Origin: Modestobacter sp. VKM Ac-2985
Lineage (GTDB): Bacteria; Actinomycetota; Actinomycetes; Mycobacteriales; Geodermatophilaceae
Assembly: GCF_026967925.1 (NCBI RefSeq)
Contig: NZ_JAPVBI010000001.1
Span: 1,635,894 to 1,699,893, forward strand
DNA length: 64,000 bases
Reading direction: 5' to 3'
Position numbers and translations under genes: made by a program. The notes under the pieces are model-generated. The model saw only the letters and a list, made by a program, of their open reading frames with translations, was not told the origin of the DNA and did no database searches. This document shows, in pieces, positions 4,723-61,894 of this stretch. Within the stretch, counting starts at the first letter, position 1, and each line of letters begins with the position of its first letter.

Positions 4723-4790
4723 CTCAGGCATAGGAAGCTCTTCACCCGGTTCTTGGCCGGCACGTGGGTGAACAGCTTCCTTTGCCTCAG
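4723..4790. terminator. Bidirectional stem-loop between convergent genes
   Basis: Arms 4723-4747 and 4766-4790 pair over 25 bp with three mismatches, around an 18-base loop. It lies between the kinase stop and the flavin reductase stop; the right arm overlaps that stop codon. There is no T-tract, as is common for actinobacterial terminator hairpins, and it could serve both strands. Confidence 0.7.
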
Positions 4791-5443
4791 CTGCCGCGGA
4801 GGCGGTCGCCGATGGACGGGTCCTCGGTCCAGCTGCGGTAGGGGATCCGGCGGATCTCCTTGACCTCGCCGATCGTCGACCACTCGTTGCCGCCGAGCCG
4901 GGCGAGGGGCTGCAGCGCCTCGATCCGTGGCCGGCCGTCCCGGACGACGCTGTCCCACGCCGAGACGTGCACCACCCGGCCGAACACCACCGTGCTGTCG
5001 CCCAGCCGCAGGGTCGCGTGCAGGACGCACTCCAGGGTCACCGGTGACTGGGCGACCCGCATGGTGGTGATCCGGTCGCTGGCCTCCAGGGTCACCCCGG
5101 TGTGCTCGGCCTCGCTCTGGTCCGGCGGGAAGTCGGTCCCGGTGGCGTTGACCTGCTCGAACAACGCCTCCGGGGTGAGGCTGATGGTGAACTCGCCGCT
5201 GTCCTCCACGTTGCGCAGCGAGTCCTTGCGGCCCACCGAGGTGAACTGGACGACCGGCGGGTCGACGCAGGCCACCGTGTAGAAGGAGTGCGGCGCCAGG
5301 TTGTGCACGCCCTCCGCCGAGCGGCTGCAGACCCAGGCGATCGGCCGGGGCACCACCACCGAGTTCAGCACCCGGTAGAAGGCCCCGGTCTCCATCTCCG
5401 CCGGGTCGAAGGAGACGCGCGGCGGGCTGCTCTGCTCGGTCAC
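4787..5443 (-). CDS. Flavin reductase family protein (FMN-binding split barrel)
   Basis: A 218-residue protein of the flavin reductase / DIM6-NTAB family, which binds FMN in a split-barrel fold. The usual features are seen: VVPRPIAWV near residue 30, the NLAPHSFYTVACVDPPVVQFT strand-turn (read in parts) near 48-68, and the KDSLRNVEDSGEFTISL segment. The family includes reductases that feed flavin to monooxygenases and others of unknown role. It is the last gene of the minus-strand operon, 31 bp after the UAG-containing peroxiredoxin-like gene, so a shared redox role is possible. The substrate is not evident. Confidence 0.8.
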   Translation of the reverse strand: MTEQSSPPRVSFDPAEMETGAFYRVLNSVVVPRPIAWVCSRSAEGVHNLAPHSFYTVACVDPPVVQFTSVGRKDSLRNVEDSGEFTISLTPEALFEQVNATGTDFPPDQSEAEHTGVTLEASDRITTMRVAQSPVTLECVLHATLRLGDSTVVFGRVVHVSAWDSVVRDGRPRIEALQPLARLGGNEWSTIGEVKEIRRIPYRSWTEDPSIGDRLRGS

Positions 5444-5474: not shown

Positions 5475-6143
5475 TCAGCTGCGGGCCTGCCCGTCCGGCG
5501 GGTGCTCGGCGCGCCAGGTGTCGAAGGCGCCGAGGAAGGACTCGGCCATCCGCTGCTCGGTGACCAGCAGGTCGCGGTCCCGGTCGTCGACCATCCGGTC
5601 GCTCAGCGCCATGGTGTTGAACCGGATGGCGCGGAAGTAGGGGATGAAGGAGCTGGGCTTGAACGCACGCTTCGAGGGGTGGGGCTGCACGCCCTCGGGC
5701 GTCCAGGGGGCTGGCTCGGGGAGCGCGGGGAGGCCGAGGGACTCGAGCGCGGTGAGCACCGGCTCGTCGTCGGTGCGGTCGGTGAAGTCCCGGGACAGCT
5801 CCCGGAAGACCTCGCGGCCGTCCGGGGCCACGGCGACGACGACCGGCCGGAAGATCGACGCGTCGGCGTCCCAGGCCCCCAGCGGCTTCGCCAGCCGGGT
5901 GCCCTCGGGATCGCTGGCCCACCGGAACGGCAGGTGCCAGGTGTGGTCCATGGCGAGCTGGACCTCGGGCGGGTCGACCGAGGCGAGCACCACCTCGGCG
6001 CCGGCGGCGGTGATGCGGGGCAGGGACTGGGCCAGACGGACCGCCTGGGCGCAGCAGTAGGGCTACCAGTCGCCGCGCAGGCCGACGAAGAGGAGGGCGG
6101 CGCGCGTGTCGGTGCGCAGGTCGAGGAGGTCGCTGCTCGTCAC
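5475..6143 (-). CDS. Candidate UAG-encoded selenoprotein, peroxiredoxin-like (AhpC/TSA, thioredoxin fold)
   Basis: The frame runs from a GTG at 6143 to a TGA at 5475 with one in-frame TAG at 6063-6065 (codon 27 of 222). Up to that codon it reads ...LLFVGLRGDW; beyond it PYCCAQAVRLAQSLPRI. This matches the F-x-R-G-D-W-C-P-Y-C-x-A-Q start of AhpC/TSA-like thioredoxin-fold proteins, with TAG in place of the first, peroxidatic cysteine. The rest (VVLASVDPP, HTWHLPFRWASDPEG, PVVVAVAPDGREV) continues the same fold, and about 80 further residues follow. The GTG overlaps the glycosyltransferase stop (GTGA), so the start is credible. A SECIS-like hairpin follows the TAG. Geodermatophilus and Blastococcus are reported to insert selenocysteine at UAG. 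The alternative is a pseudogene; but TGC or TGT to TAG needs two base changes, and the downstream part keeps its reading frame. Confidence 0.82.
6030..6050 (-). promoter_or_regulatory. SECIS-like stem-loop downstream of the in-frame TAG
   Basis: In the mRNA the 5' arm GCCCAGGC (6050-6043) pairs with GUCUGGCC (6037-6030), one mismatch and one G-U pair, closing a GGUCC loop at 6042-6038. The loop begins 21 bases after the TAG. In E. coli fdhF, as I recall it, the GGUCU loop begins about 19 bases after the UGA. Loop sequence and distance therefore both match the bacterial selenocysteine insertion element bound by SelB. Confidence 0.65.
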
Positions 6144-7309
6144 CTGCCCAGGATGGGTGCCCGGGGCTCGGCCCGCTGGTCGACTGCGGCGACCGGCAGG
6201 GTGCGCCCGCGCCACCGGAGCGAGCCCCGCCGGTGTCCGGCCACCGAGCGGGCGACCAGCACGTCGAGCAGGACGATCGACACCGGGTGCGCCAGCGAGT
6301 CCGGCCAGGCCCGGCCACCCGTGCGGGACGCGACCACGGCCCGGTTCACCACCCCGGCGGCGTAGCCGACCAGTCCGACGCGGGAACCGGTCAGCGCAGC
6401 CAGCGGCGGCAGCAGCCAGACGGCGCTGAGCCCGGCCGCCATCCCGACGGCGGCCGCCGGGCGCCCGCCGACCGCCGACCACAGCGACTTCGTGTAGCCG
6501 TCCCGGACGCCGGGCCAGCCGTCGTACATCCGGCAGGCGGCCAGCGTCGAGCCGTCGACGACGACGCCCCGGCCCCCGGCGGCCTTGACCGCGCGCAGCA
6601 GCGCGACGTCCTCGATCACCTCACCGCGGACGGCGGCGTGCCCGCCGGCCCGGTCGTAGGCGGCCCGGCGGACCACCAGGAACTGCCCGTTGGCCGCCGC
6701 CAGCGACGGTCGTGGTGACCGCTCGGCCAGGCGCAGCGGCAACAGGGTGGCCCACAGCCACTGCTGCAGCGGTTGGACCAGCCGCTCGGCGGTGCTGCCG
6801 GTGAGCTGGCGCGGCCAGGGGGAGACCAGGTCGAGCGCCGCGTCGTCGAGCAGGGCGACCGCCGAGGCGATCGCGTCGGGCATCAGCCGGACGTCGGCGT
6901 CCAGGAAGACCAGCACGTCGTCGTCGGCCTGCTGGCGGTCCGTGGCGGCGCCCTGGGCGCAGGCGTTCGGCTTGCCCAGCCAGCCCGGCCCGGGCGGCGT
7001 CGCGGGCAGCAGGGTGACCCGGGCGTCGCCGACCGCCGTGACCCGGTCGGCGGTGCCGTCGGTGGAGCCGTCGTCGACGACCACGACCTGCAGGTGCGGC
7101 ACCCCGCGCTGGTCGAGCACGGCGGCCAGGCAGCCTTCGATCTGGTGGGCCTCGTCGCGTGCCGGGACCACCACGGTCACCCGGCGGGGGACCGGCCGCG
7201 GCAGGGCCGGCGGCCGGCGGAGGAGCCGGCTGTTCAGCGCGGCGTGGACCGCGGCCGCCACCGAGAGCCCGGCGCACACCCGCAGCAGCCCGCGCCAGGC
7301 AGCGGTCAT
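6140..7309 (-). CDS. Family 2 glycosyltransferase, CruG-like (carotenoid glycosylation)
   Basis: A 389-residue GT2 enzyme with an N-terminal membrane segment (about 8-24), a nucleotide-sugar domain (VTVVVPARDEAHQIEGCL, VVVVDDGSTDGTADRV, metal-binding DAD in VFLDADVRL, and VIEDVALLRAVKAAG), and C-terminal hydrophobic helices. Gene order with a CruF-type hydratase and a CrtI-type oxidoreductase suggests CruG, which glycosylates the hydroxylated carotenoid end. The ATG overlaps the CruF stop (ATGA), and its own stop overlaps the GTG of the selenoprotein candidate (GTGA). The carotenoid role rests on context; the sequence alone supports only a membrane GT2. Confidence 0.75.
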   Translation of the reverse strand: MTAAWRGLLRVCAGLSVAAAVHAALNSRLLRRPPALPRPVPRRVTVVVPARDEAHQIEGCLAAVLDQRGVPHLQVVVVDDGSTDGTADRVTAVGDARVTLLPATPPGPGWLGKPNACAQGAATDRQQADDDVLVFLDADVRLMPDAIASAVALLDDAALDLVSPWPRQLTGSTAERLVQPLQQWLWATLLPLRLAERSPRPSLAAANGQFLVVRRAAYDRAGGHAAVRGEVIEDVALLRAVKAAGGRGVVVDGSTLAACRMYDGWPGVRDGYTKSLWSAVGGRPAAAVGMAAGLSAVWLLPPLAALTGSRVGLVGYAAGVVNRAVVASRTGGRAWPDSLAHPVSIVLLDVLVARSVAGHRRGSLRWRGRTLPVAAVDQRAEPRAPILGR

Positions 7310-8124
7310 CGGCGTCGGCGCCGTTCCTGGACGGCCAGGACGGCGAGCACCGGCACCGCCAGGACGACGCCCCAGACCGCCGAGCCCGGGAGGTCCAGCC
7401 ACGCGGCGTGGGCCAGGGCGCCGCCCAGCACCATCCAGCCCAGCGTGAGCAGCGGTGCGGCGTCCCCGATCCGCGGCGGGAGGCTGGTGCGCTCCACGAG
7501 CAGGTCCAGCAGGGTCATCAGCACCAGGCCGGCCAGCAGCCAGCCGACCAGATTGGTGAGCGGCACGGTGGGGATGCCCGGCAGCCCCGGCTCCGGGTAC
7601 GTCCAGCGCCAGTAGCCGGCCTGCACGAGCTGCGGGTCGAGCACGACGTCCCAGGCGGCGAAGACGTAGGCCGCCACCGCCACCCGGGCGGCCCGGCGCC
7701 GGCCGGGGCGGATTTGGGAGGTGAGCCGGGCGGCGAGCACCCAGCTCGGCCACGCCATCATCAGCCAGGCCAGCGGCACCAGGAAGGGCACCCCGAGCAG
7801 GGTCGGCCCGAGCAGGTCGCTGTAGCGGTACTCGCCGTACGGGAACCCGGTGCGCAGCCCGAGCGCCTCGAACAGCACCGCGACGACGCCGACCAGGACC
7901 AGCACCGCGGCCCCGGTGCGCACGCCGCGGCTCACCGCGGCGTGGCTGACCGAGACCGCCGAGCCCAGCAGCACGATCGCCCAGCTGACCGTGTCACGGC
8001 CGTCCCCGCTGCTCAGCGGGTAGGCGATCGCGGCGCCGAGCAGCGCAACGGTCAGCGCCAGCGGCAGCCACGGCAGCGGCGCCGGCTCGGTACCCGGGCG
8101 GCGGGTGGTCAGCGTGCCGGTCAC
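7306..8124 (-). CDS. cruF: CruF-like carotenoid 1',2'-hydratase, integral membrane
   Basis: A 272-residue membrane protein with about seven hydrophobic helices and the motifs of the carotenoid biosynthesis (CruF / bisanhydrobacterioruberin hydratase) family: FPYGEYRYSDLLGPTLLGVP, LAWLMMAWPSW and AAWDVVLDPQLVQAGYWRW (the last two read in parts). The enzyme hydrates the terminal psi-end of linear carotenes. The start is a GTG at 8124 that overlaps the stop of the upstream oxidoreductase (GTGA). It lies between a CrtI/CrtO-like dehydrogenase and a CruG-like transferase, so the operon probably makes a hydroxylated, glycosylated carotenoid. Confidence 0.8.
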   Translation of the reverse strand: MTGTLTTRRPGTEPAPLPWLPLALTVALLGAAIAYPLSSGDGRDTVSWAIVLLGSAVSVSHAAVSRGVRTGAAVLVLVGVVAVLFEALGLRTGFPYGEYRYSDLLGPTLLGVPFLVPLAWLMMAWPSWVLAARLTSQIRPGRRRAARVAVAAYVFAAWDVVLDPQLVQAGYWRWTYPEPGLPGIPTVPLTNLVGWLLAGLVLMTLLDLLVERTSLPPRIGDAAPLLTLGWMVLGGALAHAAWLDLPGSAVWGVVLAVPVLAVLAVQERRRRR

Positions 8125-60928: not shown

Positions 60929-61894
60929 GTGATCAGCAGTCCCGGACCGGCCTCCTCCGGCGGGCGACCCGGTGAACACCGGTCGCTGCCCGTGCCCGAC
61001 GGGCTCGAGGGGCAGCGGGTCGACCAGGCGCTGGTGCGGCTGTTCGGGGTCTCCCGCGCCATGGCCGCCGAGCTGGCCGACGGCGGTGCCGTCGTCGTGG
61101 ACGGCCGCGCCCGGGGCAAGGGCGACCGGCTGACCGCCGGCAGCTGGCTGGAGGTCGAGCTGCCGCCACCACCGGGTGAGCCGGCTGCGCCGGTCCCGGT
61201 CTCCGGGCTGACGGTGGTGCACGACGACGACGACGTCGTGGTCATCGACAAGCCGGTCGGGGTGGCCGCGCACGGCAGCCCCGGCTGGACCGGGCCCACG
61301 GTCACCGGCGGACTGGCCGCGGCCGGCTACCGGATCTCCACCAGCGGCGCGGCCGAGCGGCAGGGCGTCGTGCACCGCCTGGACGCCGCGACCACCGGGC
61401 TCATGGTCGTCGCCAAGAGCGAGCGGGCGTACACCCTGCTCAAGGCGGCGTTCAAGGAGCGCACCGTCGACAAGGGGTACCAGGCCCTGGTGCAGGGGCA
61501 CCCCGACCCGTCCAAGGGCACGATCGACGCCCCGATCGACCGGCACCCCAAGCACGACTGGCGGTTCGCGGTGGTGACCGGTGGCCGCCCGTCGGTCACC
61601 CACTACGAGGTGGTGGAGGCCTTCCCGGCGGCCAGCCTCGTCGACGTCCACCTCGAGACCGGGCGCACGCACCAGATCCGGGTGCACTTCTCCGCGCTGC
61701 GCCACCCGTGCGTCGGGGACATGACCTACGGGGCCGACCCGACGCTGGCCGCCCGGCTCGGGGTGGACCGGCAGTGGCTGCACGCCGTGCGGCTCGGGTT
61801 CGCCCACCCCGCCGACGGGCGCTGGGTCGAGTTCACCAGCGACCACCCGGCCGACCTGGCCGGCGCCCTGGCTGTCCTGCGCGCCGAGAACTGA
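60929..61894 (+). CDS. RluA/RluD-family rRNA pseudouridine synthase
   Basis: A 321-residue large-subunit pseudouridine synthase. An S4 RNA-binding domain (about 25-90, [20 protein letters not shown]) precedes the catalytic domain. The catalytic Asp152 is in [44 protein letters not shown] and [12 protein letters not shown] are also typical. By similarity and place after lspA it is RluD-like, probably acting on helix 69 of 23S rRNA, but RluA-type targets are not excluded. GTG start. Confidence 0.88.

Follow-up and report, generated by a model that had tools for sequence, protein, structure and literature searches.

The gene examined here lies on the minus strand of a 64-kb stretch of Modestobacter sp. 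VKM Ac-2985 DNA (64,000 nucleotides, the window) taken from a genome of 4.7 Mb in 9 contigs (G000). The earlier note had described a 222-codon frame that is coupled to the upstream gene through a GTGA overlap and interrupted once, by TAG, between FVGLRGDW and PYCCAQAV. Retranslation of the minus strand gave the same frame, the same overlap between the GTG start and the upstream TGA stop, and the same single interruption. The features of the locus are as follows, in window positions; G110 is an organism from another family of the same order.

5475 to 6143, minus strand: predicted gene for a UAG-Sec peroxiredoxin-like protein, with 222 codons, a TGA stop, and a GTG start at 6143; supported by a PF00578 match and by orthologues
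6063 to 6065, minus strand: in-frame UAG, codon 27, very probably read as Sec (U27 of RGDWUPYCC); every family orthologue has TAG, G110 has TGA, and distant relatives have Cys
6054 to 6062, minus strand: Pro-Tyr-Cys, the rest of the UxxC motif; C30 and C31 are invariant in 22 orthologues
6051 to 6053, minus strand: C31, a second Cys directly after C30
6026 to 6055, minus strand: putative SECIS stem-loop, with an inner hairpin CCAGGCG-GUC-CGUCUGG at 6032 to 6048 and a single C bulged out of the 5' arm
6140 to 6143, minus strand: GTGA overlap of the start GTG (6141 to 6143) with the stop TGA of the upstream gene (6140 to 6142)
6140 to 7753, minus strand: upstream neighbor, a family 2 glycosyltransferase (HpnB/CruG-like) with no part in recoding
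4787 to 5443, minus strand: downstream neighbor, a flavin reductase-like protein, found in this position only in Modestobacter

The coding signal continues across the TAG, with a third-position GC of 1.00 over the 26 codons before it and 0.98 after it in the same frame. When the window was scanned for single stop codons with strong coding periodicity on either side in one frame, the codon 27 TAG was the only TAG recovered. The scan also returned a single TGA with strongly coding flanks in one frame, at position 61892 on the plus strand, which may simply reflect two neighboring genes that share a frame. The mechanical list of open reading frames yields a 172-amino-acid frame starting at 5993, as anticipated by the suggestion that normal gene calling would miss or split the gene.

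A family-wide search found the gene in 30 of 115 Geodermatophilaceae genomes, representing 5 of 12 genera, and all 30 copies have TAG as an internal stop. Twenty-eight copies are intact and contain exactly one internal stop each, always TAG, a pattern well outside what chance would give. The other two are frameshifted just after it; the position of the TAG at codon 27 was verified in 21 of the 28 intact family genomes. In a set of 149 relatives, full-length orthologues with TAG at codon 27 were found in 21 family genomes, together with the two frameshifted TAG copies. The named orthologue records come from Modestobacter, Blastococcus, and Geodermatophilus and all carry TAG, such that TAG at this codon spans at least three genera. 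The orthologue in G110 is 55% identical and has TGA at codon 27, and more distant relatives (~30% identical), which we take to be members of cd02970, have Cys at the Sec site within RGDWCPYC. The alignment therefore agrees with the expectation of Cys, or of TGA or TAG, at codon 27 in homologues and with the RGDWCPYC motif that had been ascribed to relatives at the position of the stop.

No further orthologues were detected in a class-wide search (395 genomes) or in the family of G110 (24 genomes), and across these searches the UGA form is known from the G110 orthologue only. Every close orthologue found carries a Sec codon, and none has Cys at codon 27. In the 22 aligned sequences, U27, P28, C30, and C31 are kept without exception (22/22). 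UAG also serves as the true terminal stop in 10 of the 21 UAG orthologues, indicating that its decoding depends on context and that the codon has not been globally reassigned. A second TAG or TGA in some orthologues was considered as another internal stop and rejected, as it is the terminal stop; a TGA in a paralogue in genome G002 was likewise rejected as an internal Sec codon because it is the end stop.

The genome encodes the machinery that such decoding would need. A tRNASec gene with a CUA anticodon is located at G000:C1:1342216-1342307 (64.2 bits with the Rfam model, whose gathering score is 47), with selA directly downstream (TIGR00474, 410.8 bits) and then selB at C1:1343721 (268.8 bits). 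selD is found at C1:1333490 (387.8 bits) and has Cys in its GGGCACK motif. All four genes that the earlier note had named for a genome check are thus present. In the 149-relative set, a CUA tRNASec was found in every family genome that carries the gene (23/23), and SelD is the Cys form in the UAG genomes checked. The tRNASec of G110 has a UCA anticodon (L056). Since TAG occurs with a CUA tRNASec and TGA with a UCA tRNASec, the Sec codon tracks the tRNASec anticodon, and this pairing within the same gene provides a clean natural demonstration that the former follows the latter. Within the family, genera g6, g8, and g10 have a UCA tRNASec in the genomes checked. The selD gene of G110 (L226, G110:C5:157722-158645) is ~4 kb away from the UGA version of the gene and itself contains an in-frame TGA, which is probably a Sec codon.

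Just 3' of the UAG, the transcript can fold into a hairpin whose inner stem of 7 bp, CCAGGCG-GUC-CG(C/U)CUGG, continues below the bulged C; the GGUC apex is 20 nt from the UAG. In the codons after the UAG that the hairpin spans, silent sites are 0.92 identical, compared with 0.75 in the rest of the gene (P = 0.004), and the gene's most conserved windows lie in this region. Because there is so little sequence variation, only one pair of the inner stem (G-C/G-U) shows covariation. The single-sequence folding energy of the hairpin showed no excess over shuffles (z = -0.44), a measure that is uninformative in such GC-rich sequence, and an Rfam search returned no SECIS match; matches to snoRNA models in that search were below the gathering score and were taken as chance. 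The GGUC loop is also found in the hairpin of the UAG-Sec formate dehydrogenase gene of the same genome. The hairpin is therefore a likely candidate for a SECIS element.

The two frameshifted copies, in G002 (L027) and G039 (L028), come from different genera, and each is missing a single C from the GCGCCC run of the hairpin's 5' arm, ~15 to 18 nt after the UAG, with the result that the bulge is lost and the frame is shifted. The downstream 186 to 187 codons nevertheless still evolve under purifying selection (dN/dS of about 0.23 to 0.44) and have no other lesion. The deletion seems most likely to be either a recent independent loss or an assembly error at a strong hairpin.

Selenoprotein genes with UAG were sought in two families only, AhpC/TSA and formate dehydrogenase. 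At the Sec site of the formate dehydrogenase of G000 (L217, G000:C1:218913-219656), the codon is UAG (ENQARI-U-HSATVPG), and a hairpin, GUCCCC-GGUC-UGGGGAC, is found 18 nt after the UAG. Its orthologues have UAG in Blastococcus saxobsidens and G013 and UGA in G110 and G121. Formate dehydrogenase-like frames with an in-frame TGA were also counted in UCA genomes of the family (G029, G031, G038, and G045), and genera g8 and g10 have such frames; the counts are per frame, and inspection of some of them did not confirm a Sec-site position for the TGA. These distributions suggest that UAG use arose inside the Geodermatophilaceae from a UGA-using ancestor.

We considered whether the TAG could instead be a real stop, either in a decaying gene or through a sequencing error, such that the downstream part would be a remnant or would be translated separately, for example from the GTG at 5993. 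The separate frame in the mechanical list and the existence of frameshifted copies in two genomes are in keeping with this explanation. However, all family orthologues, which come from at least three genera, have their TAG at this same codon, dN/dS downstream of the UAG is 0.22 to 0.41 within the family, and the active site, RGDW...PYCC, spans the TAG with almost no variation. Moreover, the same codon is TGA in an organism that decodes UGA, and unless the UAG is read, the part of the protein 3' of it, and with it the active site, would not be made. These comparative data exclude a pseudogene and a sequencing error, and a real stop is accordingly very improbable.

Decoding of the UAG as another amino acid, by a pyrrolysine system or an ordinary amber suppressor, is also highly unlikely, even though ARAGORN labels the CUA tRNA as tRNA-Pyl. 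The covariance model identifies this tRNA as tRNASec, it lies beside selA and selB, and at the site that it would decode, distant homologues have Cys and an organism with a UCA tRNASec has UGA. A search of G000 for pyrrolysyl-tRNA synthetase (PylS) gave no match, implying that the ARAGORN label follows from the anticodon only.

With the frame, the machinery genes, the match of codon to anticodon, purifying selection that continues across the UAG, and the conserved hairpin established from sequence, we consider it very probable (~0.94) that the gene encodes a 222-residue selenoprotein of peroxiredoxin/thioredoxin fold in which UAG is read as Sec by a CUA Sec-tRNASec, SelA, SelB, SelD, and a 3' SECIS hairpin. 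In this scheme, SelA would make Sec-tRNASec (CUA) from Ser-tRNA, using selenophosphate supplied by SelD. SelB would deliver the Sec-tRNASec, and the SECIS hairpin immediately downstream would direct SelB to the UAG at codon 27, so that other UAGs would still terminate. Both selenium insertion at codon 27 and SelB binding to the hairpin are what we infer from the genes and their comparison. The claim of a UAG-Sec peroxiredoxin-like enzyme is supported by the CUA tRNASec, by selA, selB, and selD, and by the codons of the homologues; selB and the CUA tRNASec, whose absence the earlier note had named as grounds for refutation, are both present.

The predicted protein matches PF00578 (AhpC/TSA) at 43.7 bits, relative to a cutoff of 26, and all 22 aligned members match at an E value of 0.001 or better. 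An AlphaFold model (pLDDT of 92) has a peroxiredoxin fold over residues 1 to 139, and its best match among solved structures is Mycobacterium tuberculosis AhpE (Z score of 17.2 over 134 residues, 22% identity), for which a mycothiol-exposed structure, 5id2, is also available. Comparison of the family profile with solved structures by sequence gave no match. The product would thus consist of a peroxiredoxin/thioredoxin-fold core (residues 1 to 139) followed by a C-terminal helical part. Sec27 is placed just before the first long helix of the model (residues 28 to 46), and at the start of this helix it would form a U-P-Y-C-C active site.

Given the PF00578 match and the observation that the nearest solved folds are peroxiredoxins, with AhpE first, the protein could be decoded as proposed and yet be a true peroxiredoxin, that is, a peroxidase of the AhpC type and not a thiol:disulfide oxidoreductase. 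We regard this as a serious possibility of somewhat less than even odds, since sequence alignments, which are weak matches, align U27 to the leading Cys of WCxxC, the thioredoxin-type motif, in PDI and ResA, and since a conserved peroxidatic TxxC was not seen, the motif being UPYCC. If C30 were the equivalent of the peroxidatic Cys, U27 would, judging from the profile alignment, sit at the Thr position. The best reading appears to be that Sec takes the place of the more N-terminal Cys in a CxxC motif, with C30 as the likely resolving or partner thiol. The earlier proposal that the stop replaces the reactive Cys accordingly holds insofar as the site is the first Cys of RGDWCPYC, although it does not clearly correspond to the peroxidatic Cys.

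Since these weak alignments match U27 to the leading Cys of a thioredoxin-type motif, we describe the protein as a peroxiredoxin-like oxidoreductase of the UxxC type, which is a safer label than peroxidase. The protein may have peroxidase activity. Most likely, it would use thiols to reduce peroxides or disulfides in a mycothiol-containing organism. More tentatively, the gene could define a distinct selenoenzyme family that exists only in Sec form (UAG or UGA), has no close Cys form, and reduces disulfides or peroxides in a mycothiol-linked manner.

UAG-directed Sec insertion with tRNASec-CUA was reportedly described in Geodermatophilus and Blastococcus by Mukai et al. in 2016. G000 likewise has a CUA tRNASec and a UAG formate dehydrogenase. 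PMC5330540 states that UAG-Sec was reported in the Geodermatophilaceae in 2016 for formate dehydrogenase and UGSC proteins, consistent with what the earlier note said of Geodermatophilus and Blastococcus. The selenoproteins that this paper attributes to Mukai et al. are formate dehydrogenase and UGSC-motif proteins; the Modestobacter peroxiredoxin-like gene is not among them, and Modestobacter is not mentioned in the passages concerned. The paper itself, by Santesmasses, Mariotti, and Guigo (2017), adds a predicted UAG-Sec AhpC with a predicted SECIS in B. saxobsidens DD2, which resembles the Modestobacter gene in being AhpC/TSA-type, in coming from the same family of organisms, and in having UAG-Sec and tRNASec-CUA (PMC5330540). 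The orthologue in B. saxobsidens DSM 44509 is 78% identical to the Modestobacter gene and is the only PF00578 gene found there with an internal TAG. It is therefore very likely the same gene as the DD2 AhpC described in that paper. The Modestobacter gene is thus well supported as a new example of a known phenomenon, with UAG-Sec itself and, very likely, the Blastococcus copy published earlier.

A peroxiredoxin-like thiol:disulfide oxidoreductase with pfam00578 and UxxC is a listed bacterial selenoprotein family (PMC9312934). The Modestobacter gene, likened to this family by description, shares pfam00578 and UxxC but differs in having UAG rather than UGA, a second Cys in UPYCC, and a C-terminal helical extension. 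The peroxiredoxin-like cd02970 family is listed as having a selenoprotein form of the UxxS type (PMC13188914); the Cys relatives of our gene assigned to that family are distant, with the RGDWCPYC motif and Cys at the Sec site.

In the 10 orthologues that end with UAG, the codon means both Sec and stop inside one open frame. Being short and found in a cultivable actinobacterial genus, the gene would be a convenient reporter for UAG-directed Sec insertion. Standard annotation is likely to miss or truncate such genes, and the automatic tRNA caller labels the tRNA as a pyrrolysine tRNA.

The locus had been described as a carotenoid operon. CruG/HpnB-like and CruF-like genes do lie upstream, but this setting is limited to some Modestobacter among the loci examined. 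Since the CruF/CruG-like and flavin reductase context is absent from the Blastococcus and Geodermatophilus loci examined, a role for the gene in carotenoid metabolism is doubtful. In G039, one neighbor is an Rv2466c-like mycothiol-dependent enzyme, and in G110, it is a pyridine nucleotide-disulfide oxidoreductase, with selD nearby.

Two genomes of the family contain more than one tRNASec gene. G036 has one with a UCA and one with a CUA anticodon (L037/L293 at G036:C17; L066 at G036:C11), and the UCA copy lies near transposase-like sequence, as read from the translation, with no evident selA alongside. On contig G048:C255, two CUA tRNASec genes (L100 and L101) lie ~59 kb apart.
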